38,821 bases of DNA from the NCBI GenBank assembly GCA_028718565.1, contig JAQULO010000013.1, forward strand, positions 1-38,821, given 5' to 3'. The stretch is from Syntrophales bacterium (GTDB taxonomy: Bacteria > Desulfobacterota > Syntrophia > Syntrophales > UBA2210). The stretch's first letter is position 1, and every line of letters starts with the position of its first letter. A program made the position numbers and the translations under genes. The notes below the pieces were generated by a model, which was given only the letters and a program-made list of their open reading frames with translations, was not told the origin of the DNA and made no database searches. This document shows, piece after piece, positions 8,660 to 22,386 of the stretch.

Positions 8660-8695
8660 TGAGATCTCGTGGGTACCACGTTCAAAGGAAACACA

Positions 8696-9313
8696 ATGCC
8701 GGACAATGACAACAACATTCCTACTGGCAAGGATACGGTTTGCTATGAAGCCTTCGGCAACCTCTACCTCAACATAACAAACCGGTGCAGCGCCAGTTGT
8801 GTATTCTGCATACGGGAAACCTGTGACGGGGTTTACGGTTACGACCTCCGCCTTTCAAGGGAACCTTCGGAAGAAGAGATAATCAGAGCGTTCGAAGGTC
8901 TCAAACTGACTGAATACAAAGAAGTCGTTTTTACCGGCTTTGGTGAACCCACATGCAGATTTGATACGGTGCTCCGCTTAACGGAGTGGCTGCACAAAAG
9001 GGGAATGTCTGTCAGGCTGGACACCAACGGCCACGCAGCACGCATGTACCCGGGCAGGGACGTTGTCGCGGAACTGAAAACGGCAGGCCTCGATGCGGTA
9101 TCCGTGAGCCTCAATGCCGAATCGGAAGAAAAATATAACCGGTTGTGTAAACCCGCCTTCGAAGGGTCCTACCAGGCACTTCTCGATTTCACAAAAAAGG
9201 CCGTCACGGCCGGCATCCGGGCCCGCATGACCGTTGTCGGCCAGCAGGGTATCGACATCGAGGAATGTGAAAGAATAGCAACCGGGCTTGGGGCTTCCTT
9301 CAAGGTACGGTAA
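8696..9313 (+). CDS. Radical SAM protein resembling the TatD-linked family
   Basis: YLNITNRCSASCVFCIRE (CxxxCxxC), VVFTGFGEPT, VRLDTNGHA, LDAVSVSLNAES. Likely start ATG at 8696 (MPDNDNN). Confidence 0.85.
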   Translation: MPDNDNNIPTGKDTVCYEAFGNLYLNITNRCSASCVFCIRETCDGVYGYDLRLSREPSEEEIIRAFEGLKLTEYKEVVFTGFGEPTCRFDTVLRLTEWLHKRGMSVRLDTNGHAARMYPGRDVVAELKTAGLDAVSVSLNAESEEKYNRLCKPAFEGSYQALLDFTKKAVTAGIRARMTVVGQQGIDIEECERIATGLGASFKVR

Positions 9314-9320
9314 TAAGCAT

Positions 9321-10760
9321 TCAATGATCCGGCCCTTGTTGCGGTTCAAAGGCCCGTTTTGCTCCCAGAAAAGACGGCAGATGTCTGATCAGGTGCCAGA
9401 GGCTCCAGCGATGCTGCCATATCCTTTTCCCGAATCTTTTACGCCAGACCGGATCAGAGTAGAAACGCTTCACATGGGTATTGTAGAGATAATCGAGCCT
9501 TTCTTTTGAGGCGATCCCTTTCGGAATGAAAACGAAATTGAGACAGTTCATCCGCCGCCAGTCCTCATGAAAGTTCCCTTCCTCACGGATGGTTGACCAT
9601 ACGGGTGCTCCGGGAAAGGGGGTAAACTTGGCCATGTTCATATCGTCAAGTCCCAGAGAGAGGACGTAATCGCTCGTCTTTTGGATCGATTCTTCCGTCT
9701 CCCCCGGCAATCCCATCATGAACAACCCCTTGACCCGCAGACCGCACGACTTGATTCGTGCAACCGTGTCCTGAACCTCTTCCAGGCTGACCCCGGATTT
9801 GTGCCTCTCCAGCAACGCCGGATCAGCCGACTCAATCCCGACGGAGACCATCAGGCAGCCTGCATCCCGGAGCATTGTGAGGAGTTCATCGTCAGCATAG
9901 CCGACGCGGACCGCGCAGTTGAATTGGATGCCCAGCGGTTTGGCAGACAAGAGCCGGCACAGTTCGGCAATGCGGGATCTCTCCAAGGTAAAGAGGTCGT
10001 CATAGATGTTGATGTGCCGGACTCCGAAGCGTTTCCGGAGATGACTCATGTGTTCGTAAATGTAGTCGGGGCTGTTGAACCGAAAGGATCGTTTAAAGAC
10101 GGAACGATCGCAGTAGGAGCACTGGTAAGGACAGCCTCGGCTGGTGTTCATCGTGGCACCGGGTGTGCGGATATAGCTGAAGAGCGGCAGGGTATAGCCT
10201 TCCGGAAAACCCTTCAGTCCCTCGTAATCCGGGAAGGGAAGCAGGTCCATATCGAGGAGCGTCCTCCGGGGTGGATTGACAATGACCTCATCGCCGTTGC
10301 GTCTGATCAATCCTTCAATTGTGGCAGGTTCTTTTCCCGAAGCCAATTCAGAGAGGGTCACCTCCCCCTCGCCGGGACAGAGATAGTCGATGCCGGGAAA
10401 GCCCGCCATCAGGGACGCTCCCTTGGCGGAGACGTGAACCCCGCCAAAGACAGTCTTGATCGCGGGATCGACTTCCTTGATCCGGACCGCCATGTCGTGA
10501 CCGTCCAGGAAGCTGGAGGTCGTCGTCGAGAAACCAACCAGTTCCGGATCGGAGTGCAGAACGATCTTTACGTTTTCTTCGACCCCCTGCGGCGCGTAAG
10601 GGCCAAGGCAATCGTGCAGGACAACGACATGACCATCGCGCTTCAGATAGCCTGCAATCGAGAGGAGCCCGAGAGGAGCCATCCTGTTGGCCGTCGCCGT
10701 AATATCTTTCTTTCCGGGGATCCAGTTCGATCCGGCGGGATGGACCAGGGTTATCCTCAT
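9321..10760 (-). CDS. B12-binding-domain radical SAM protein
   Basis: N-terminal Rossmann-like domain (MRITLVHPAGSNW...DPELVGFSTTTSSF...KTVFGGVHVSAKG); radical SAM motif TSRGCPYQCSYC; BchE/HpnP-like architecture. Confidence 0.9.
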   Translation of the reverse strand: MRITLVHPAGSNWIPGKKDITATANRMAPLGLLSIAGYLKRDGHVVVLHDCLGPYAPQGVEENVKIVLHSDPELVGFSTTTSSFLDGHDMAVRIKEVDPAIKTVFGGVHVSAKGASLMAGFPGIDYLCPGEGEVTLSELASGKEPATIEGLIRRNGDEVIVNPPRRTLLDMDLLPFPDYEGLKGFPEGYTLPLFSYIRTPGATMNTSRGCPYQCSYCDRSVFKRSFRFNSPDYIYEHMSHLRKRFGVRHINIYDDLFTLERSRIAELCRLLSAKPLGIQFNCAVRVGYADDELLTMLRDAGCLMVSVGIESADPALLERHKSGVSLEEVQDTVARIKSCGLRVKGLFMMGLPGETEESIQKTSDYVLSLGLDDMNMAKFTPFPGAPVWSTIREEGNFHEDWRRMNCLNFVFIPKGIASKERLDYLYNTHVKRFYSDPVWRKRFGKRIWQHRWSLWHLIRHLPSFLGAKRAFEPQQGPDH

Positions 10761-10776
10761 AAATTTTTTGCAGGCC

Positions 10777-11499
10777 TTATTTGTTTTTTATAAAGGGTCG
10801 GACGCAAATCCTTCGAAAAATCAAACGGCTGAAGGTAGCGCTGTTACGCATGAAATCGACAAAGCCCCGATAGTGGGAGACCCGCTCCCCTTCAGGCTGA
10901 TACGTCACCCGGACAGGCGCTTCCATAACGGTAATACCCTGCCCTCTCGCCTCCGCCAGGATTTCCACCTCAAACTGGAAGCGCCTGGCCTTGACCCGCA
11001 GTTTCAAGCTCTCCGGCAGCGGGTAGAGTCTGAAGCCGCTTTGCGAATCCGCAATGTCAGGCCCACCCGAGGCCCGCACCCAGAAGTTCGAGAAGCCTCG
11101 CCCGAAGCGACTTTTCCACGGCACATGGCAGTGATCCATTCCTTCTCTTCGCCCGACGACAATCGGCCTCTTGCCCGGAGGGACGGCCTTGATGAAATTC
11201 CAGGCGTCTGCCGGGTCGTGCTGTCCGTCGGCGTCGATAGTGACGGCCCAGTCCACCGAGGGCGCGGCTGCGGCAAAACCGGTCAAGATCGCGGCCCCCT
11301 TTCCAAGATTGTCGTCATGACGGATCACGGTCACGGATGGGATATCATTGATCCGGTCATAAGTCCCATCGGTCGAGCCGTCGTCGATGACGAAGAGGGG
11401 TGCACCGATCTTAAGGGCCTCGGCAATGACCTCTGCTATCTTCCCTTCATGATTATAAACGGGAATCACGATCGCCACACGGCTGATGTCTATATTCAT
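10777..11499 (-). CDS. Family 2 glycosyltransferase
   Basis: VAIVIPVYNHEGKIAEVI, VIDDGSTDGT, TIDADGQHDP (DxD-like), SGFRLYP. Confidence 0.93.
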   Translation of the reverse strand: MNIDISRVAIVIPVYNHEGKIAEVIAEALKIGAPLFVIDDGSTDGTYDRINDIPSVTVIRHDDNLGKGAAILTGFAAAAPSVDWAVTIDADGQHDPADAWNFIKAVPPGKRPIVVGRREGMDHCHVPWKSRFGRGFSNFWVRASGGPDIADSQSGFRLYPLPESLKLRVKARRFQFEVEILAEARGQGITVMEAPVRVTYQPEGERVSHYRGFVDFMRNSATFSRLIFRRICVRPFIKNK

Positions 11500-11508
11500 C
11501 GCGTTTTC

Positions 11509-13227
11509 CTAATCGGCAAAGAAGGCCATCCCCCAAGTCCCCGGCCCTGTATGCACACCCGTCGTCAACGAAAGCGGGGTGACTGCAATCTCCGCCAGGG
11601 GGTATCGTTTTTCAATTTCGGGGCGAACGGACTGCCTCACCCAGTCGCCGTTGTCCGTATATTCCAGCCAAATGGCTGACCGTGAATCCTTCGGCAGAAC
11701 CTCGCCGAGTTTGTCAAGGGCAAAGGTGATTTGATCCTGCCGGTTCCTGACCATGCCGACCTTTTGGGCACCATCGGCTTGAGGGCTGATGACCGGCTTC
11801 ATGTGCAGCAGATCACCGACAAAGGCCCCCGTTTTTGAAAGTCGTCCGCCGACGGCCAGATAGTGCAATCTGTCCACGAAAAGATATTCATGACAGCGCG
11901 CAACCGCCTTTTCTGCAAAAGCAATGACCTCGTCCGGGTCGGTTGTCCGGCGGGAAAATTCAGCCGTCATCGCGGCCAGAAGTCCCAGCCGTCCCGCGGC
12001 GCACCCGGTATCGACGACTGTAAGTGCGTTTTCAGGATCATGGTCGGCCTTCCACTGTAGGGCCGTCTGGTAATTTCCGGTGTAAACCGATCCCACACAG
12101 AGATAGAGAACTTTGCCGTAGAGGCTGAGCGCCCCCTGATACGCCTGATGCCGTTCCCGGACGGAGGACTGGGAGGTCGAAGCGGGGGTCCTTTTTTTCA
12201 TGGCGCCATAAAGGGTTCCGGGGGTAAGGCAACTTTCCGGCAGAGAGGTATCCCCCAGGGAGATGTAGCTGTCGAGAAGGGTTATCTCGAACTGTCGTGC
12301 CACATCGCGCGTGAGCGAGCCCGCCGCGTCGGTCATCACATGAATCGCCTGCGCTCCTTGCGAATCCCGAAAGGTGGCCATCTGCGCGCTCAAATCATCT
12401 TCGGACCAGCGGACAACATCCCCGAACTTTTCCAGAGACCGTCGCGCCTCCGCCCGGTCGGGCGTATGGAGGTGCACCTTGACATAAGCGCCTTTTCTGA
12501 TGACCACGAGACTCTCCCCGATTTCTGCGAGGGAGGCCATTTCTGCTTCCAATGTCTCTCCCGGCGACAGAACCATATCCACGCAGTACCCAGGTTCCGG
12601 CGCAACGGCGGCCTCTGCGCCATGCAGATGGAGTTGATCTCCGAAGAGAGCAGCGACAGGACAGAAAGTTTCGGCGTTGCCGATCAGGGAGTTGAAAAAT
12701 CCGTCAAAAAAGAGAAGCATTCCCAGTGCCCCGGCATCGACAACCCCCGCCTCCTTCAGGCGTGGTTGCCGCTCCGGTGTTTCCCGCACAACACTTACCA
12801 GATGCGCCATGATCCCTTCAACCCACGCTGTGTCCGCGGCGGCAGGAGCCTCGCAAACAACTTCCGCGAGCCCATCGAAAAAGGTCAGCATCGTCCCCGG
12901 CTGTGGATCTCCGACCGCTCGCCATGCCTGATCCCGTCCCTTTTGAATCGCCGCGGGGAACTTCTCCGGGGTATTCGCACGGATGAAGGCGTCGAAGAAT
13001 CGGGCCGCGATATTGCCGGCATTCCCCCGCGCCGAAAAGAGCAGATCTTCGGCGACGTCTTCACTGTTCGTATCAATCCGGCGCAACGGCGCCAGGCTGA
13101 TGATGAGATTGCGCCCCGTATCACCGTCGGGAACAGGAAATACATTGATGCGGTCCAGAAGACCCGACCAGGCCGTCACCCGCTCGACACCGTCAACAAG
13201 GGCTCTGCGAAAATTCGGGGCTGTCAT
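11509..13227 (-). CDS. DAK2/DhaL-like and DegV domain fusion (FakA-FakB-like putative fatty-acyl kinase/carrier)
   Basis: DhaL/FakA motifs INVFPVPDGDTGRNLIISL and SARGNAGNIAARF; C-terminal DegV motifs IHVMTDAAGSLTRDVARQF and TSQSSV. Start assigned at 13227, where ATG overlaps the thioesterase stop by one base (TGATG); the listed ORF runs upstream to 13326. Confidence 0.85.
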   Translation of the reverse strand: MTAPNFRRALVDGVERVTAWSGLLDRINVFPVPDGDTGRNLIISLAPLRRIDTNSEDVAEDLLFSARGNAGNIAARFFDAFIRANTPEKFPAAIQKGRDQAWRAVGDPQPGTMLTFFDGLAEVVCEAPAAADTAWVEGIMAHLVSVVRETPERQPRLKEAGVVDAGALGMLLFFDGFFNSLIGNAETFCPVAALFGDQLHLHGAEAAVAPEPGYCVDMVLSPGETLEAEMASLAEIGESLVVIRKGAYVKVHLHTPDRAEARRSLEKFGDVVRWSEDDLSAQMATFRDSQGAQAIHVMTDAAGSLTRDVARQFEITLLDSYISLGDTSLPESCLTPGTLYGAMKKRTPASTSQSSVRERHQAYQGALSLYGKVLYLCVGSVYTGNYQTALQWKADHDPENALTVVDTGCAAGRLGLLAAMTAEFSRRTTDPDEVIAFAEKAVARCHEYLFVDRLHYLAVGGRLSKTGAFVGDLLHMKPVISPQADGAQKVGMVRNRQDQITFALDKLGEVLPKDSRSAIWLEYTDNGDWVRQSVRPEIEKRYPLAEIAVTPLSLTTGVHTGPGTWGMAFFAD

Positions 13228-13646
13228 CAAAACTCCAGGGCCGTGCGTATTTCTTCCGGGATTGAGAAGAGCATTTCCATCCCCGGCGCTTTCACTGCGA
13301 CCTGCTCCGTTCTGCCGCGCGTGCATTTTTTGCCGTCTTTTTTCAACCTGATTTCAAAGTCGAAAACGAGTTTCGTCTTCGCTTCCACCAGCGTAGCCTT
13401 GCAGATGAATTCATCCCCATAACGCAGGGGAAAGATGTGTTTCGAGGATGTCCGGATGATCGGGAAGAGGCATTGCGTTTTATTGTAGTACTCGTTGAGG
13501 TCGATACCACGGCGGGCAAGGAGCCCTCTCCTACAGTCCTCATAATAATTGAAATAATTGCCGTGCCATACGATCTGCATGGGATCGAGTTCGTAAAAGG
13601 CTACCCGGCGCTCCGTTTCAAAACTCAAAAGTTGTTTGTCGCTCAT
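13227..13646 (-). CDS. Hot-dog acyl-CoA thioesterase (4HBT/YbgC-like)
   Basis: RRVAFYELDPMQIVWHGNYFNYYEDCRRGLL matches the 4HBT active-site signature. Confidence 0.88.
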   Translation of the reverse strand: MSDKQLLSFETERRVAFYELDPMQIVWHGNYFNYYEDCRRGLLARRGIDLNEYYNKTQCLFPIIRTSSKHIFPLRYGDEFICKATLVEAKTKLVFDFEIRLKKDGKKCTRGRTEQVAVKAPGMEMLFSIPEEIRTALEF

Positions 13647-13663
13647 GACAGAACCCTTTCCAC

Positions 13664-15211
13664 CTATCTTACTGCCGGTTTAAAGACATCCGTTTTGGCG
13701 ATCACCTCAGCGATGTTTTCGATATCCCGGTCCATGGGCCGATCTTCAATGACCCCATCGGCAGTGACACGAATGTTTTTGATCACATCCGACAGCGCCG
13801 GGCGGGCCTGAAAGTCCTTACGCAGCTCACACCCCTGCGCGGCCGTCAGGAGGTGAATGGCGACAATCCGCTCCACGAGGGTACAGATCCGCTGGGCATC
13901 CCGCGCGGCGATGGTGCCGAGGCTGACCTTGTCCTGGTTGTGCGACTCGCAGGATCTGGAGAATGAGGCTGCCGGCATCGTTCCTTTCAGGGCCTCGGCG
14001 CACAGGGCCGTCGCCGTAATGGACATGGCCTTGAAGCCGTGGTTCAACAGAAATCGATCCCCCGCGGCGCCGACCAGATCGGCCGGGAGACCCCGATTGG
14101 TCTGAGGGTTTACCAACAGAATGATCTGACGGTCGGAGATGTCGGCAATCGCTGCCAGGGCGCACTTGAGCGCATCCATCGCAAAGGCGATATGCCCGCC
14201 GTAAAAATTGCCGCTCATGAAAGGCTTCCCCGTCTCGGGATCAAAGATCGGATTGTCATTCGAGCTGTTGGCTTCCGTCTCGACCCACACCCTGATCCAG
14301 GCAAGGGCATCATAGAGGACCCCGGCAATCTGCGGGGTGCAGCGTATGGAGTAAGGGTCCTGCAGGGAATCGGGGGAGTGCTCTTCCATCTCGGACGAGG
14401 AGTGTTTTGTCGCCAGGAGATCCCGCAGGCGTTTGGCGACATGGATTTGTCCGGCGAAGGGTTTCACCTCGCCGATTAGGGGATGAAAATGATGAACCTT
14501 CCCTTTGAAGGCATGGACACTCAGGGCGGCGGCGCACATAAAGGCGTCAAGAATCCTCTCCGCCCGGTCCACCACCATGACGGCAATCCCCGTCATGGTC
14601 GATGTTCCGTTGATCATCGACAGGGGCTCTTTCGGTTCGAAACGATAGGGGGAGAGTTTGGCTGCCTGCAGCGCCTTCAGCGCTGGCATCCTCTTACCCC
14701 GGTACAAGACCTCCCGTTCCCCCGCCAGGCAGGCGGCGACGTACGACATGGGGGTGAGATCGCCGGAGGCGCCGACGGAGCCCTCGGACGGGACCGCCGG
14801 GGTAATGCCGAGATTTAGAAAGGCCTCGAGCTGCTTTAACAGCGCCATCGATACGGCAGAATACCCCATCGCCAGGCAAATCATCCGGCAAAGCATGGCG
14901 GCACGCGTTTCTGCTACGCCGATGAGATCGCCCGTTCCGCAACCGTGGAAGGCAATCGGGCTCACGACATGCTTTGAGGCGGCCTTCACGGATATCCGCT
15001 TTCCGCATGATTTGCCGTATCCGGTGTTGGCTCCGTACACGGCGACACCATTCTGCATGGCGTCCGTCAGCATGGCCCGCGCCCCTTCAATTCTCCGGAT
15101 GAAGCTTTCATCCGCGCTCAACCGTACCGCCGCCTTTCCTTCAGAGACGGCAACAATCTGCTCAAGGGTCACGGGGCCTTCTCCAACAACAACCGCTTTC
15201 TTCTTAATCAT
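13664..15211 (-). CDS. MIO-dependent aromatic amino acid ammonia-lyase (HAL/PAL/TAL family)
   Basis: MIO triad in EGSVGASGDLTPMSY; VYGANTGYGKS; LQDPYSIRCTPQ; NSSNDNPIFDPETGKPFMSGNFYGG; QGCELRKDF near the C-terminus. Confidence 0.93.
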   Translation of the reverse strand: MIKKKAVVVGEGPVTLEQIVAVSEGKAAVRLSADESFIRRIEGARAMLTDAMQNGVAVYGANTGYGKSCGKRISVKAASKHVVSPIAFHGCGTGDLIGVAETRAAMLCRMICLAMGYSAVSMALLKQLEAFLNLGITPAVPSEGSVGASGDLTPMSYVAACLAGEREVLYRGKRMPALKALQAAKLSPYRFEPKEPLSMINGTSTMTGIAVMVVDRAERILDAFMCAAALSVHAFKGKVHHFHPLIGEVKPFAGQIHVAKRLRDLLATKHSSSEMEEHSPDSLQDPYSIRCTPQIAGVLYDALAWIRVWVETEANSSNDNPIFDPETGKPFMSGNFYGGHIAFAMDALKCALAAIADISDRQIILLVNPQTNRGLPADLVGAAGDRFLLNHGFKAMSITATALCAEALKGTMPAASFSRSCESHNQDKVSLGTIAARDAQRICTLVERIVAIHLLTAAQGCELRKDFQARPALSDVIKNIRVTADGVIEDRPMDRDIENIAEVIAKTDVFKPAVR

Positions 15212-16478
15212 TTTTCGTAATTCCTTCTTTTCCGAATGTATGGGATATCAGATCCCGCCTGCGATGGCGGAATGTGTTATCGGCCTTTTCTTTTACGATG
15301 ACCTTTTTGAGGAGTTTGAACATTTTATAGTTCTGAGGCTCCTCTTTATAAAAGGCATTCCATGCCTCATGGTACAGTTCCTGAAGTCTTTGAGGAGTCA
15401 TATGTTTCGGCTGAAAGATCACCCGGTCGCAGGTATAGTCGTTCCAATCGTAAGACATGATGCGGCCTTCCCGATGGAGATCCTCAAAGGCCCGGGTATG
15501 GGGGAATGGGGTCAGAACGGTAAATTCCGCGAGGTCGAGTTCGACCTCCAGGAGAAAATCGATCAACCTCTTGATGTCGTCTTCCGTCTGATGGTCCAAC
15601 CCCAGCAGGATAGTCCCCTCGACGCCGATGCCGTGGTCGTGATAGCGTCTGATTCGGTTGCGGATGGTGTCGGATGTATCGAAGATGGCCTGATAGACAT
15701 ACCAGGCCCCTGCCTGGGCGGCCAGATCGAGGACCTCGTCATCATCCTCGATGGGATGGCAGCACCATTTCTTTTTCAGGGGAATCATCTCCCGGAAGAG
15801 TCCCAGTTCCCACGCCTTGTTCTGAGCCAGTGAATTGTCGACGAGAAAGAGCCGGTTGTTGTCGATCCCGGCCATTTCTTCGATCACGCGGTCATAGGGG
15901 CGAGGCCTGAAGGATCGACCTCCCAGGAAACTGACGCAACAGGGATAGCAACTGAAGCGGCCTCCCCGTGAGGCATGGATGAGATCGACCATCTGCATTC
16001 CTTTGTGGTAGTAAAGCTCACGCGTCAAGATTGAGCGTCGCGCCGGCCCGAGCGACTCAATGGGGGGAAAATCGAGGAGGTAGTCATAGCGTTGTTGCAG
16101 GCGACCTTTTTTGAAATCGTCGATCACGCCGTCCATGCGCCCCTCCGCCTCGCCAAGGAAGACGGAATCGGCATGCAGCATTGTCTCTTCATCGTGCAAC
16201 ATCGTAGCAATACCGCCAAAAATGACCTTGATCCCGCGAGCCCTGAACCGGTCGGCGATCTCCCAGCCTCTTTTGATCTGGCTTGTCAGCATCATGGAAA
16301 TACCGACCAGGTCTGGGGAGTCTTCAAAATCAATGGGGACAAGGTTTTCGTCGACAAAATCAACATCAACTTCTTCGGGAAGGGTTGCCGCAAAAACGAC
16401 CGGTCCGTGGGGGGGTAAATGAAACTCCGTCTGCCCCTCGAGTTTGCACCATTTCGGATAGATCAATTTTAATTTCAT
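15204..16478 (-). CDS. B12-binding-domain radical SAM-like protein with a non-canonical Cys motif
   Basis: N-terminal B12-binding-like domain (DSPDLVGISMMLTSQIKRG...KVIFGGIATML); HASRGGRFSCYPCCVSFLGG aligns with the TSRGCxxxCxxC motif but has Gly at the first Cys. Overlaps the lyase start by 8 bp. Confidence 0.85.
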   Translation of the reverse strand: MKLKLIYPKWCKLEGQTEFHLPPHGPVVFAATLPEEVDVDFVDENLVPIDFEDSPDLVGISMMLTSQIKRGWEIADRFRARGIKVIFGGIATMLHDEETMLHADSVFLGEAEGRMDGVIDDFKKGRLQQRYDYLLDFPPIESLGPARRSILTRELYYHKGMQMVDLIHASRGGRFSCYPCCVSFLGGRSFRPRPYDRVIEEMAGIDNNRLFLVDNSLAQNKAWELGLFREMIPLKKKWCCHPIEDDDEVLDLAAQAGAWYVYQAIFDTSDTIRNRIRRYHDHGIGVEGTILLGLDHQTEDDIKRLIDFLLEVELDLAEFTVLTPFPHTRAFEDLHREGRIMSYDWNDYTCDRVIFQPKHMTPQRLQELYHEAWNAFYKEEPQNYKMFKLLKKVIVKEKADNTFRHRRRDLISHTFGKEGITKND

Positions 16479-16488
16479 GGCGTCCTTT

Positions 16489-17211
16489 TCAATCGGTTTG
16501 ACCCGGTGACGGTTGCTGCTGCAAATCTCCGGCGGATATGGGTTCAGCGCTGATCAACGTCAGGCGGAGCGAATAATCCACTGCGGTATAACCGGTCAGT
16601 TCCACCACGCCCGGCATCCCGCTTTGAACGGCGGAGGCCCTGACCTTGCGACGAGTTTTGTGATTTGCGCCGTAGGCCGTGATCTCCCAGCCGTCACCCC
16701 GACGGGCAACCACATCGATTATCCCGCCTTGCCGGTCGTCGTACCGGCAGACGGCGGCACCGTCTTCGAGGGTGCCGGTCTCCAGAAGACGTCCCTCGGG
16801 CGCAAGAAAAATGAGACGGATATCCTCCATCATGTTGTCCGCAAACCGAGGCGTATCGAAGGGCGGCACCGCCCGCTCCACGTGCACCTCTTTTCCGCCT
16901 CCGGCCTCAAAAAGGACAAAGCCTTCCAGGGTAAGGAGCGCACTGTGTGTTCTCCGCGCCCGGGGATCGAACAGGGTGATGCCCAAAAGGGTCTCCGGCG
17001 TCCGTCCGGCAACGGTTGCCTCCAGCGAATGAATCAATCGATAGGGGCGGTTAAGGAAGGGCTGCTCGCATCGCCGCACATTGTCCTGTGCGCCCGTCGT
17101 ATCCGAAGGAGGGATAACGGGAAGCCGGCCGCACGCGCTCAAAAGGACTGCCAACGCCATCCCCCCCAGCCATAACAGAGAGGTCTGTCGGATTATACGG
17201 AGGCTCTTCAT
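16489..17211 (-). CDS. DUF3261-like outer-membrane lipoprotein
   Basis: Lipoprotein signal MALAVLLSACGRLPVIPP (lipobox LSAC). Position next to LolA and general character match the DUF3261 lipoproteins of aryl polyene clusters. Confidence 0.7.
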   Translation of the reverse strand: MKSLRIIRQTSLLWLGGMALAVLLSACGRLPVIPPSDTTGAQDNVRRCEQPFLNRPYRLIHSLEATVAGRTPETLLGITLFDPRARRTHSALLTLEGFVLFEAGGGKEVHVERAVPPFDTPRFADNMMEDIRLIFLAPEGRLLETGTLEDGAAVCRYDDRQGGIIDVVARRGDGWEITAYGANHKTRRKVRASAVQSGMPGVVELTGYTAVDYSLRLTLISAEPISAGDLQQQPSPGQTD

Positions 17212-17861
17212 TCCACTTCCCGGAATATTGATTCAGGGATCTTTCCATTGACCCGGATATCGCTGAATTCAAAGAGGGTGTAGTTCCCTTCACTCTCTAC
17301 GATCTTCACGGATCGCAAAATGCCCGGTCTGTCGGGCGCCGGCGCGATCACGATGCGTTCGATCATCGCAGCAAGCCCCTCTTCCTTCGGCGTCATGATA
17401 ATCTGCGGGTCTTCCCCCCCCTTCAACACCGCCGAAAAATACGGATTGGTTGTAAATCGGCCCTTGCTCCATTGACCGATCTCCTTGAGGATAACCTGCA
17501 TGGATTGAAGCGAGTCGCTGGTAGTTTCGATGAGTCCTGTGCTCCCCTGTGTATACCGCCTGATCCCCTGGCCGCTCGTCAGGAGGATGCTCTTGACCGG
17601 AGACGAGTACTCCCACCGGATTGCATCGGGGGCCTGAAAATAGAAGCGCCCCTGGGAAACCAGGGGGGTGGTCAGGATCTTCATGTGTTTCGACTGGGTA
17701 AACCCGGCATTCAGCGAAGAGACCTTCGCCGATTCCCTCTGAATATCCTCCCAGCTGTTAGTCCAGTTCTCCGCCCATGCGGGCATAGATAAGCACATAA
17801 AAAACGTGAAGATGAGACAGAGAACGCTTGAGATACCGCTCTTTTTTTTCATGAAATCCAT
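17208..17861 (-). CDS. LolA-like outer-membrane lipoprotein carrier protein
   Basis: Signal peptide (KKKSGISSVLCLIFTFFMCLSMPAWA), then NAGFTQSKHMKILTTPLVSQGRFYFQAPDAIRWEYSSPVKSILL, typical of LolA-like proteins. Start at 17861 or 17852; the listed ORF extends to 17945. Confidence 0.88.
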   Translation of the reverse strand: MDFMKKKSGISSVLCLIFTFFMCLSMPAWAENWTNSWEDIQRESAKVSSLNAGFTQSKHMKILTTPLVSQGRFYFQAPDAIRWEYSSPVKSILLTSGQGIRRYTQGSTGLIETTSDSLQSMQVILKEIGQWSKGRFTTNPYFSAVLKGGEDPQIIMTPKEEGLAAMIERIVIAPAPDRPGILRSVKIVESEGNYTLFEFSDIRVNGKIPESIFREVE

Positions 17862-17928
17862 TACCAGCCGGAAGCCGCCGGCAAACAATACGAAGATACA
17901 ATTCTTAAAATGAAAGACAATCGCTTTT

Positions 17929-18657
17929 TCAGAACATCCCACCATTGACCGATATTACCTGCCCCGTAACGTATGACGCGTCATCGGAACAGAGGAATCG
18001 GACAACCTTGGCGACCTCTTCCGGACGTCCGATCCGCGCCATGGGAATGAGCTCCTTGATCTTTACGATGGGCGCGCCCTCGATCATATCGGTATCGATG
18101 AGCCCGGGCGCAACCACATTCACCCGTAATCCCAGACGCGCAACCTCGGAGGCAAGGGAGCGACTGGCGCCGATCAGACCCGCTTTAGCTGCCGCATAAT
18201 TGGCTTGGCCTCTGTTACCCATGAGGGCGGATACGGAGGCGATGGAAACAATCGACCCTTTACGCCTCCGGACCATCGCCTTGACCGCCGGTTTGGTCAT
18301 ATTATAAAAACCTTTCAGGGTCGTTTGAATCACCGAGTCCCAATCTTTCTCCGGCATCATCATGAAGAGGCCGTCGGCATTGATTCCTGCGTTATTGACC
18401 AGAACTGAGAGGCCTTTGTATTGTGCGACGATCCCTTCCATCGCCTCTGCGGCTGCCTTCGAATCGGCCACATCGAAGCAAAGCTTCTCCGCCTGCCCCC
18501 CCTTGGAGCGGATCATACTCAGGGTTTCCTCGGCTGCCGCCTCATTGGACTTGTAGGTGATCAGAACCCCGTAGCCGACAGCGGCGAGATCAACGGCAAT
18601 GGCTCGTCCGATGCCGCGGCTGCCCCCCGTTACAATGGCAATCTGCATGTCATTCAT
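17929..18657 (-). CDS. 3-oxoacyl-[ACP] reductase, SDR family (FabG-like)
   Basis: AIVTGGSRGIGRAIA, NNAGINADGLF, SIVSIASVSALMGNRGQANYAAAKAGL (Ser-Tyr-Lys), VAPGLIDTDM, YVTGQVISVNGGMF. Confidence 0.95.
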   Translation of the reverse strand: MNDMQIAIVTGGSRGIGRAIAVDLAAVGYGVLITYKSNEAAAEETLSMIRSKGGQAEKLCFDVADSKAAAEAMEGIVAQYKGLSVLVNNAGINADGLFMMMPEKDWDSVIQTTLKGFYNMTKPAVKAMVRRRKGSIVSIASVSALMGNRGQANYAAAKAGLIGASRSLASEVARLGLRVNVVAPGLIDTDMIEGAPIVKIKELIPMARIGRPEEVAKVVRFLCSDDASYVTGQVISVNGGMF

Positions 18658-18677
18658 GATGCTTTAGACTCCTGTAA

Positions 18678-19124
18678 TCAGGCCGTTTCCTCAGATTCGC
18701 GAAGCACCTGGATTTCCACTCGGCACAGCATGTCATCGCCTGCCTGGACCTCTCCGGCTATCACGTTGTATTGATCGATATGGTAAAGGCTCCTCACGGT
18801 TGTCCGGAGGATTGTATCCACCGGAATCCGGTCGCAAAAAAAGTCGGCGTTTTTGACGCCGACCATCCATCCCCGCCGGTCGGTGGCGCTTCGTCCCCCT
18901 TCGGTTTTTCCGCTGATGTAAACCGCCGAGGTCTGCGCCACAACCTCAATGAGAACAATGGGGTCGACAAACAAATCCCGGCACAGAGGCCATTGATCAG
19001 AGACACGAGCCCTTGTAACGGCCTTATCGTCATCGATGTCCAGAACCTCATCGATCAGCTTCATCCGGCCGCGATGCGGAATGAGTTCTTCTATATCCAT
19101 ACAACACGGCGTCTGCAAAATCAA
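18678..19124 (-). CDS. 3-hydroxyacyl-ACP dehydratase-like hot-dog protein
   Basis: DIEELIPHRGRMKLIDEVLDIDDDKAVTRARVS resembles FabZ/FabA-like proteins; first gene of the minus-strand operon. Confidence 0.8.
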   Translation of the reverse strand: MILQTPCCMDIEELIPHRGRMKLIDEVLDIDDDKAVTRARVSDQWPLCRDLFVDPIVLIEVVAQTSAVYISGKTEGGRSATDRRGWMVGVKNADFFCDRIPVDTILRTTVRSLYHIDQYNVIAGEVQAGDDMLCRVEIQVLRESEETA

Positions 19125-19267
19125 TTTTCCTCCGTCCCGGCTATCTGTGATTTAATATATTCAAAACCACCAAAACATGTTAAGAGACGGTCTACTTAAG
19201 TCAAAATGTTTAAGGATGTCAAGGGAATTATCGGCGCCGCCGTAGGTTGCGGGGCGTCCCAACAGAC

Positions 19268-19283
19268 GCATCGGGCGCGATGC
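19268..19283. promoter_or_regulatory. Inverted repeat in the divergent promoter region (candidate operator)
   Basis: GCATCG-GGCG-CGATGC, a perfect 6-bp inverted repeat just upstream of the GTG start at 19305. Confidence 0.3.
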
Positions 19284-19304
19284 GAAGAATGATGTAATGA
19301 ACTC

Positions 19305-20705
19305 GTGAAAACAATCATTTCAAAGACAAATACCATAAACAACCGGATCGGGTATCAGGATATTCTCTGCCTTCCCCCGGAGGCGCACCGGGATTTTATC
19401 CTGAACGGCTGCACCTATGAAGAGCTCTATCGCCTTGCCGGAGGACTTAGCCGACTCTCCCGAGCCTCCGAATCGGAAGATCCGCTGATCTGCTTATGCA
19501 CCGACGACAAGGCCCTCCTGATGGCGGCCCTGCTGGCCTCCCTGGCTGGCGGGCCCCGACTGGTTCTTCCCCATGCCTTCTCACGCCAGGCTGTTGCTGA
19601 CGTCCATGAAAGCCTGTCCCCTGAATTTTATCTGACGGACAGCACGGAGCAGACCGACGCTCCGGCGGGTTCGAAGATTGTTACTCCGTCATCATTGACC
19701 GGGGACGTCCTGGACCCGGCCTCCATGCGGGACCCGGACGAGCCCTTTCTCATCCTCTTTACGGGCGGATCGACCGGAAACCCCCAAATGTGGCCAAAAA
19801 CGCCCAGGAACATGTTGGCCGAGGCCTGTTTCCAGGTTGATACCCTCGGCATGACCGGAGAGGATATTTTCTTGTCGACCGTACCGCCCAATCACATATA
19901 CGGGCTTCTCTTCTCCGTCCTTGCGCCCTTTATCAGCCGAGCCCGCATTTTGAAAGAGACCTGCGTCTTTCCAAGAGAGATCATTCGAGCCGCGCGCGAT
20001 TTTCAGGCATCCATTCTGGTCAGTGTTCCAGCCCACTACCGGGTCCTTCGGACAGAGGCCCTCAACTGCGGGCATCTCAGGATAGCCCTTTCTTCTGCCG
20101 GGACTTTGGATCGAGAAGACGGTGCTTTTTTTCATGACAAAACGGGGCTCGAAATTACGGAAATCTTCGGTTCGACGGAAACGGGAGGGATCGCGCAACG
20201 ACGCCGCTCCCAGGACGGCGAATCGTGGATTCCTTTGCCCCCTGTTGATTGGAAGATAGATGAAGGGAAATTGTGTGTCCGTTCGGACTTCCTCTCCCCT
20301 GCCCTTCCTCGTGACGGCGAAGGCTTTTTCATGACAGCCGATCGCATCGATGCGGATGGAAACGATCGATTTATCCTCCGGGGGCGGACGGATACGGTCG
20401 TTAAAATCGGTGGAAATCGGGTCGATATGGCGGAAATTCAGGCCAAACTAAAGCAGATTCCAGGGGTTCGTGATGCGTTTGTTGTGTCCCTTCCGGTCGG
20501 GAAGGGGCGCCAAAACGAGCTGGCCGCCGTTGTGGCGACGGACCTTACGGTTGCCCGACTGCGTCGTCAAATCGCCCAAATCTGCGAAGCCTATGCGGTT
20601 CCCAAACGACTGGCGGTCGTCGATGAAATACCGTTAACGCCGGCAGGAAAATACATAAGGTCGAAAATTGACGGGATTCTGCGAAGAGGAACGTCAGTAA
20701 GGTAA
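19305..20705 (+). CDS. AMP-dependent acyl/aryl-CoA or ACP ligase
   Basis: LILFTGGSTGNPQMWPKTPRN (P-loop), EIFGSTETGGIAQR, LRGRTDTVVKIGGNRVDMAEIQ, PLTPAGKYIRSKI. GTG start at 19305. Confidence 0.92.
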   Translation: MKTIISKTNTINNRIGYQDILCLPPEAHRDFILNGCTYEELYRLAGGLSRLSRASESEDPLICLCTDDKALLMAALLASLAGGPRLVLPHAFSRQAVADVHESLSPEFYLTDSTEQTDAPAGSKIVTPSSLTGDVLDPASMRDPDEPFLILFTGGSTGNPQMWPKTPRNMLAEACFQVDTLGMTGEDIFLSTVPPNHIYGLLFSVLAPFISRARILKETCVFPREIIRAARDFQASILVSVPAHYRVLRTEALNCGHLRIALSSAGTLDREDGAFFHDKTGLEITEIFGSTETGGIAQRRRSQDGESWIPLPPVDWKIDEGKLCVRSDFLSPALPRDGEGFFMTADRIDADGNDRFILRGRTDTVVKIGGNRVDMAEIQAKLKQIPGVRDAFVVSLPVGKGRQNELAAVVATDLTVARLRRQIAQICEAYAVPKRLAVVDEIPLTPAGKYIRSKIDGILRRGTSVR

Positions 20706-21647: not shown

Positions 21648-22386
21648 GGGGACGCCACACCGGTTTTATCAATCCTTCTTTGGTCGCCCACCTTTTTGAG
21701 GAGTCAAGATTCTTGTCAACTTGTTTTCCAACCTCTCGACAAAACTCTTGCTGCCTAAAGGCCGTCCTGTTCGTTCATGCCGTTGTAGCAGCCCGTATTC
21801 CTCGTCGGAAACATCACCGGAAAGAAACTGTCGCCAGTCGCCAACCATCCCCAACAACGGGTTTACCTTCACAAGGTCATCGTTTTCCCCTTTAATGTGC
21901 GCCTCGGCACTGCTCCATGGATATTCTTCAGGAATTGAACTCAAACCAGCCCTGACCGGATTGAGTTCAATATAACGGGTTGCTGTAAGAAGATATTGCT
22001 CATCCATCAAGAAAGATGCAAAGCGCCCCTGCCATAGATGACCTCTCCATTTCTCCCGAAAATTGATGTGCCGCGTATAACGCCGGTGCGCCTCGCCTAT
22101 CGCACGACGAAGGCCATCTTCGGATTCAGGCACGGCAATCAGATGCACATGGTTGGACATCAGGCAGTACGCCCATATTTCGACGCCGCATGTATCGCAC
22201 CATTCGCCCATAAGATGGATATAATACCGGTAATCATCATCGCAGAAAAATGTGTCCTGCCTGCGATTGCCACGCTGGGTTATATGATGGGGATAATGCT
22301 CTGCAACTACTCTCGCGATACGTACCATGGCTGACTTTTATTTCTTTCAATACCCTGTGTCAATAAAAAACTAGTATGGTGTCCCC
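21648..22386. mobile_element. RayT-type Y1 transposase element with inverted-repeat-like ends
   Basis: GGGGACGCCACA (21648-21659) and TATGGTGTCCCC (22375-22386) are imperfect inverted repeats (10 of 12) bracketing the transposase ORF. Confidence 0.5.
21669..22328 (-). CDS. REP-associated tyrosine transposase / Y1 (IS200-like) transposase
   Basis: HHITQRGNRRQDTFFCDDDYRYYIHLM, YCLMSNHVHLIAVPE (HUH), WRGHLWQGRFASFLMDEQYLLTATRYIELNPVRAGL. Confidence 0.92.
   Translation of the reverse strand: MVRIARVVAEHYPHHITQRGNRRQDTFFCDDDYRYYIHLMGEWCDTCGVEIWAYCLMSNHVHLIAVPESEDGLRRAIGEAHRRYTRHINFREKWRGHLWQGRFASFLMDEQYLLTATRYIELNPVRAGLSSIPEEYPWSSAEAHIKGENDDLVKVNPLLGMVGDWRQFLSGDVSDEEYGLLQRHERTGRPLGSKSFVERLENKLTRILTPQKGGRPKKD

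Follow-up and report, generated by a model that had tools for sequence, protein, structure and literature searches.

A group of eleven genes in the draft genome of a Syntrophales bacterium (GenBank assembly GCA_028718565.1) probably forms one arm of a split, flexirubin-type aryl-polyene pathway (an aryl polyene together with a dialkylresorcinol) in anaerobic Desulfobacterota, covering the starter, reduction, release and export functions. The window analysed here comprises bases 1-38821 of contig 13 (C13; JAQULO010000013.1) of this 2.53 Mb genome, which is assembled in 153 contigs and is 98% complete with 2.3% contamination. The evidence consists of the gene families of the operon, a complementary arm that the same genome carries on another contig (C11), and relatives in which both arms lie on a single contig; from these we infer both the pathway product and a kinase step. 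An initial annotation, made from the window alone, had recognised the accessory gene set of aryl polyene (APE) clusters and had proposed an envelope-anchored aryl or modified acyl lipid; our analysis supports the accessory set and an envelope-directed aryl lipid.

Organisation of the operon

Ten genes were located on the minus strand at 9321-19124, with the gene of an AMP-dependent ligase lying divergently at 19305-20705 on the plus strand. All eleven open reading frames (ORFs) were found to be intact and full length at the coordinates initially annotated, and most of the domain assignments were confirmed; the start of W3 was shifted to 13227. The genes are listed below (SAM, S-adenosylmethionine; MIO, 4-methylideneimidazole-5-one; SDR, short-chain dehydrogenase/reductase).

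9321..10760, minus strand: W1, B12-binding radical SAM protein (domain calls; CxxxCxxC at residues 210-217)
10777..11499, minus strand: W2, GT2-family glycosyltransferase (domain calls)
11509..13227, minus strand: W3, DAK2-FakA middle-DegV fusion of 572 aa, fatty-acid-kinase-like (domain calls and motifs)
13227..13646, minus strand: W4, hot-dog thioesterase, 4HBT, YbgC/FadM type (domain calls)
13664..15211, minus strand: W5, MIO aromatic amino-acid ammonia-lyase (domain calls; ASG triad, FHGCGTG loop)
15204..16478, minus strand: W6, B12-type radical SAM protein, Gly173 replacing the first cluster Cys (sub-threshold B12 match, homologue comparison)
16489..17211, minus strand: W7, lipoprotein, DUF3261/ApeN-like, with predicted LolA/LolB fold (lipobox LSAC; predicted structure)
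17208..17945, minus strand: W8, LolA-like carrier (LolA 50.9 bits; NCBIfam LolA2)
17929..18657, minus strand: W9, FabG-type ketoreductase, SDR (domain calls; NCBIfam FlxB second best)
18678..19124, minus strand: W10, hot-dog dehydratase, FabZ/ApeP-like (weak, sub-threshold match)
19305..20705, plus strand: W11, AMP-dependent ligase, divergent (NCBIfam 4-coumarate-CoA ligase best model)

A complementary arm on a second contig

Domain searches of the window proteins revealed no ketosynthase (KS) or acyl carrier protein (ACP), in agreement with the initial annotation, but a ketosynthase search of the genome retrieved an extensive KS/ACP locus at positions 865-29867 of C11. This locus encodes three intact KSs, a fusion of a KS with a chain length factor (CLF), ACPs (four in a genome scan) and a phosphopantetheinyl transferase (PPTase), along with a thioesterase, an ApeI-like dehydratase, a polysaccharide deacetylase and a CrtD-like flavoprotein. 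Envelope functions are represented by an MMPL-methyltransferase fusion (MMPL match of 51 bits), two LPLAT-type acyltransferases and an ABC transporter, and the locus further encodes DarB, DarH, a gene at the DarA position and four radical SAM proteins, two of which are of the B12 type. The KSs retain their Cys-His-His triads, and both ACPs inspected retain the DSI(D) serine motif. DarB (NF053539, 551.5 bits against a cut-off of 550), DarH (NF053550, 477 bits against 300) and the ApeI-like and FabA dehydratase matches all scored above their cut-offs.

None of the C11 proteins examined was a lyase, ligase, ketoreductase or LolA protein, and as these are the very functions supplied by the window, the two halves are complementary. 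A KS/ACP-free pathway was therefore rejected, as C11 carries both KSs and ACPs. The suggestion of a remote or housekeeping KS/ACP set held in its first part, since a remote set exists on C11 and is joined with the window genes in relatives; this set is dedicated rather than housekeeping. The idea that the operon might be a decayed fragment of a canonical cluster encoded elsewhere was likewise borne out only in that another KS/ACP cluster exists; it is complementary to the operon rather than redundant with it, all ORFs are intact, and the decayed-fragment reading was rejected.

Linkage and co-occurrence in related genomes

Three relatives (G055, G003 and G023) carry both arms within a single stretch of approximately 35-40 kb, in which the sub-orders of the genes are the same as in the two halves here. 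In a further instance, one contig (L012) encodes nine of the operon genes together with the ligase, W1, the flavoprotein, PPTase, an acyltransferase, KS1, ACP1, KS2, KS3 and a C11-type radical SAM protein. The initial annotation had proposed that KS, ACP and MMPL proteins are replaced by radical SAM enzymes and an acyl-kinase; this was not supported, as relatives carry them alongside one another, and the radical SAM enzymes and acyl-kinase are thus additions.

The co-occurrence of these genes was assessed by tblastn in 149 genomes of the order, with pairs compared by Fisher test. The lyase was present in 67 genomes, W6 in 73, the DAK2-DegV fusion in 74 and the ketosynthase KS2 in 71, with all four found in 57. 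W6 and the lyase (HAL) shared 66 genomes (7 with W6 alone and 1 with the lyase alone; p 6e-33), the DAK2-DegV fusion and the lyase also shared 66 (8 and 1 alone; p 5e-32), and KS2 and the lyase shared 59 (12 and 8 alone; p 2e-20). Over all gene pairs the p values ranged from 2e-20 to 2e-33, and these overstate independence because the genomes share ancestry; the linkage is nonetheless clear from its spread over approximately 20 genera and its patchy absence, and conservation of the set across dozens of genomes rules out a chance association. Physical proximity was equally consistent, with the lyase and W6 no more than 300 bp apart in 59 of the 61 genomes that encode both on one contig, and the lyase and DAK2-DegV genes no more than 700 bp apart in 53 of 58 testable genomes, mostly with a gap of approximately 440 bp, the length of the thioesterase gene. 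Across the phylum, W6 was found in 34 of 297 genomes.

Comparison with known clusters

Flexirubin clusters provide one close set of precedents, including a tyrosine ammonia-lyase (TAL), ligase, LolA, glycosyltransferase, deacetylase and exporter (PMC3992019). Common to the flx and darAB genes of Chitinophaga and Flavobacterium and to the clusters described here are the lyase, ligase, type II KS/ACP set, FlxB-like reductase, LolA2-like carrier, polysaccharide deacetylase, glycosyltransferase, acyltransferase, exporter, DarB and DarH. The present clusters differ in carrying radical SAM proteins, both B12-type and other, as well as the DAK2-DegV fusion, in their anaerobic Desulfobacterota hosts, and in a lyase and reductase that score below the flexirubin equivalog cut-offs. 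W5 reached 291 of 700 bits against the FlxA-type tyrosine ammonia-lyase model, and W9, for which the FlxB flexirubin reductase was the second-best NCBIfam match, reached 299 of 340 bits; the cluster was accordingly classed as flexirubin-like rather than as a flexirubin cluster. The best NCBIfam match of W8 was LolA2 of flexirubin clusters (99.9 of 125 bits). Our literature search found no paper joining flexirubin with radical SAM proteins.

The APE clusters, with their thioesterase, LolA, DUF3261 protein and resistance-nodulation-division (RND) exporter (PMC8253772), offer a second comparison. The clusters of E. coli and Xenorhabdus share with the present one a thioesterase, ketoreductase, ApeI/ApeP-type dehydratases, LolA, a LolB-like lipoprotein, an RND/MMPL exporter, acyltransferases, an AMP-ligase, KS/CLF and ACPs. 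The KS, KS-CLF pair and ACPs reside on C11 rather than in the window, and relatives carry them and the window genes on a single contig. The AMP-ligase, ketoreductase and ApeI/ApeP dehydratases are all represented, with the window dehydratase (W10) showing only a sub-threshold ApeP-like match, as are the LolA-like protein, the LolB-like (DUF3261) protein, weak by sequence, and the RND/MMPL exporter. In contrast, APE synthesis in E. coli starts from 4-hydroxybenzoate and not via a lyase, and neither radical SAM proteins nor an acyl-kinase are among the genes listed for it (PMC8253772). The pathway type is already known; the literature searched contained no version that combines it with a fused acyl-kinase and a set of radical SAM enzymes.

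A third point of reference is the report from 2009 of KS paralogues, radical SAM proteins, a phytoene-dehydrogenase-like protein, a polysaccharide deacetylase and a methyltransferase in anammox bacteria and Desulfotalea (PMC2649909). In these 'ladderane' type II fatty acid synthesis clusters, KS paralogues occur together with radical SAM and phytoene-dehydrogenase-like proteins, much as they do here. Against the ladderane B12-radical SAM model TIGR04072 (cut-off 360), two window proteins scored 84.8 and 40.5 and a C11 protein 104.9, and ladderane membership was rejected on this basis. The same gene mix raises the prospect of a non-pigment product, a membrane acyl chain that is polyunsaturated or modified in some other way, such as a polyunsaturated hydrocarbon or a ladderane-like lipid, with the radical SAM proteins and the CrtD-like flavoprotein performing most of the chemistry; the lipids of Desulfotalea psychrophila and anammox organisms include C31:8 and C31:9 hydrocarbons (PMC2649909), and some relatives lack the lyase. 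We regard this as improbable, given that an aromatic amino-acid lyase lies beside the radical SAM gene, a pair common to 66 of the 149 genomes, that the ligase is nearest to 4-coumarate ligases, that C11 encodes DarB and DarH, and that the TIGR04072 scores fall far under the cut-off.

The DAK2-DegV fusion protein

W3 combines DAK2, FakA-M and DegV domains and matched both FakA and FakB structures; its kinase and acyl-binding domains carry the catalytic motifs of the fatty acid kinase (Fak) system, namely DGDTG (FakA) and TxQxS, GSxxTGNY, GGRLS and HTGPG (FakB-type). Equivalog scores were below the cut-offs for FakA (97.3 of 975 bits) and FakB1 (70 of 350 bits). The ORF of 605 aa extends 33 codons into the thioesterase gene, and as homologues align from residues 1-9 of the 572-aa form, the start is most likely at 13227. 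The three domains and the key motifs are shared with FakA/FakB of Firmicutes; there the parts are separate, whereas W3 fuses kinase and acyl-binding domains in one chain within a polyene cluster. By analogy, W3 would produce the acyl phosphate of a released polyene acid. No paper linking aryl polyenes with DegV or Fak was found in those parts of the literature that were available to our search.

In Firmicutes, Fak activates fatty acids of exogenous origin, which then enter phospholipid synthesis (PMC9136124). This role would also fit a salvage or quality-control enzyme that recycles acyl chains freed by the thioesterase, with no dedicated lipid-attachment step. Such a function appears rather unlikely for W3, as the fusion was found in 66 of the 67 lyase-bearing genomes, nearly always one thioesterase-sized gap from the lyase, and C11 provides two dedicated acyltransferases and DarH.

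Other proteins of the operon

The initial annotation listed two B12-radical SAM proteins, of which W1 was verified, whilst W6 had no Pfam Radical_SAM match, a sub-threshold B12 match only, and a GxxxCxxC motif in place of the CxxxCxxC of radical SAM proteins. The Gly173 codon (GGC) lies at 15960-15962, and as every other W6 homologue read has CxxxCxxC, loss of the first Cys is confined to this genome; either this copy is impaired or codon 173 is a draft sequence error. W1 belongs to the HpnJ/BchE/AprD4 class, yet scored under all equivalog cut-offs, and its target is likely an acyl chain or aryl group. A pathway-type KS was present in 34 of 80 genomic neighbourhoods of W1 relatives. In Smithella/Syntrophaceae genomes, a W1 relative ends another recurrent cluster composed of LPLAT, one or two DarH, an ABC transporter, ACP, a KS fusion and W1 (loci L046, L047, L054, L060-L063, L071-L075, L079-L081, L085 and L088).

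The lyase W5 has the ASG triad and an invariant FHGCGTG loop. The conserved Phe-His pair of its selectivity loop presumably matches none of the pairs usual in histidine (HAL), tyrosine or phenylalanine (PAL) ammonia-lyases, and the substrate is not readable from this loop. The ligase W11, for which 4-coumarate-CoA ligase was the best NCBIfam model (103 of 335 bits), is proposed to be the starter-activating enzyme. The true start of W8 is probably inside the listed ORF. W7 had been called a DUF3261-like lipoprotein, for which the sequence evidence was weak: the window protein itself did not match the DUF3261 model, three of eight members of its family did (best E 0.003), and the model gave a sub-threshold match elsewhere in the genome. 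The call is strengthened by the predicted fold, as the AlphaFold model (pLDDT 79) had LolA and LolB proteins as its best PDB matches.

A proposed pathway

In the scheme we propose, an aromatic amino acid would be deaminated by the MIO lyase to an arylacrylate, which the ligase would activate for loading onto a C11 ACP. The C11 ketosynthases, with the ketoreductase and dehydratase of the window and the ApeI-like dehydratase of C11, would then build a conjugated polyene, whose ring or chain may be modified without oxygen by the radical SAM/B12 enzymes of both arms; from their B12-radical SAM class one might guess at C-methylation or oxygen-free oxidation. The thioesterase would free the polyene acid. 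The DAK2-DegV protein would then bind this acid and phosphorylate it, in the manner of Fak acting on fatty acids, so that the acyltransferases receive an acyl phosphate. Export of the product, which may also be glycosylated or form an ester with a dialkylresorcinol, would fall to the MMPL protein, and LolA and the LolB-like lipoprotein would ferry it to the outer membrane. An ester with dialkylresorcinol, as in flexirubin, is suggested by the presence of DarB and DarH (PMC3992019), and the LolA, LolB-like and MMPL proteins point to outer-membrane delivery, as proposed for the E. coli APE (PMC8253772).

The radical SAM tailoring and the kinase step are the new parts of this scheme and the least certain. 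To our knowledge, neither is known for aryl polyenes. We therefore put forward only tentatively the fuller proposal, possible but somewhat short of an even chance, of a flexirubin-like pathway that is widespread, anaerobic and independent of oxygen, with a dedicated single-chain DAK2-DegV kinase passing the finished aryl-polyene acid on as an acyl phosphate and B12-radical SAM enzymes tailoring the ring or chain.

Several observations weigh against the assignment of the operon to a split aryl-polyene pathway. The assembly is fragmented, such that C11 and C13 are likely, rather than certain, to derive from one organism. The lyase was closest to HAL models and matched no TAL or PAL equivalog. 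DarA was not confirmed by a family model; the C11 ORF at its position overlaps the start of DarB and matched no family model, and its homologues adjoin DarB in loci L118-L120 and L122. DarB was found in only 35 of the 149 genomes, and the resorcinol half is therefore not universal. Clusters in G162 (L167-L168) and G277 (L174-L175) encode W6 and the KS core but showed no ammonia-lyase in their vicinity, and lineages may thus use different starter units.

For the E. coli aryl polyene, the membrane anchor is unidentified and the manner of joining unsettled (PMC8253772). A kinase tied to a lyase and a thioesterase across dozens of genomes suggests an acyl-phosphate route that is directly testable. 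The cluster would also place pigment-type lipids in an oxygen-free context, among syntrophic and sulfate-reducing lineages, and it suggests that radical-SAM-rich KS clusters discussed in connection with ladderanes could be read as aromatic-polyene clusters.

Origin of the operon

No lyase, DAK2-DegV, KS2 or DarB, and no close W6, was detected in any of 18 genomes sampled from the same genus or family, which suggests horizontal acquisition by this lineage as the simplest reading. An empty-site comparison with the same-family genome G001 around RecQ showed that the neighbourhood was not syntenic. At the right end of C11 (43494-44256; L091 3494-4256), excisionase-like and integrase-like ORFs, judged by eye, suggest a genomic island.

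The same absence from relatives would be expected if the operon or C11 were contamination of the metagenome bin, and the GC content of the operon (0.53-0.59) is somewhat above that of the right part of the window (0.44-0.52), with 2.3% contamination reported for the bin. There is little likelihood of this, as RecQ of the operon contig is 91% identical to that of G001, though also 86-88% identical to those of two other families, and the presence of both pathway arms in one bin is expected under real co-residence. Similarly, absence from all 18 genomes and the lack in W6 of a cluster Cys that every other homologue read retains could indicate a decaying or non-functional remnant. We consider this quite unlikely, since the eleven ORFs are full length and the C11 arm is intact, and a single substitution in a draft genome can reflect consensus error or strain variation.

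Neighbouring genes

A TatD-associated radical SAM protein (TIGR04038, above cut-off) is encoded at 8669-9313, eight bases from the operon end, and is unrelated to the operon. In the lower-GC stretch immediately to the right of the ligase gene, the ORF at 21669-22328 resembles, by eye, a REP-associated tyrosine transposase, and beside it lies a nucleoside-phosphorylase-like gene.

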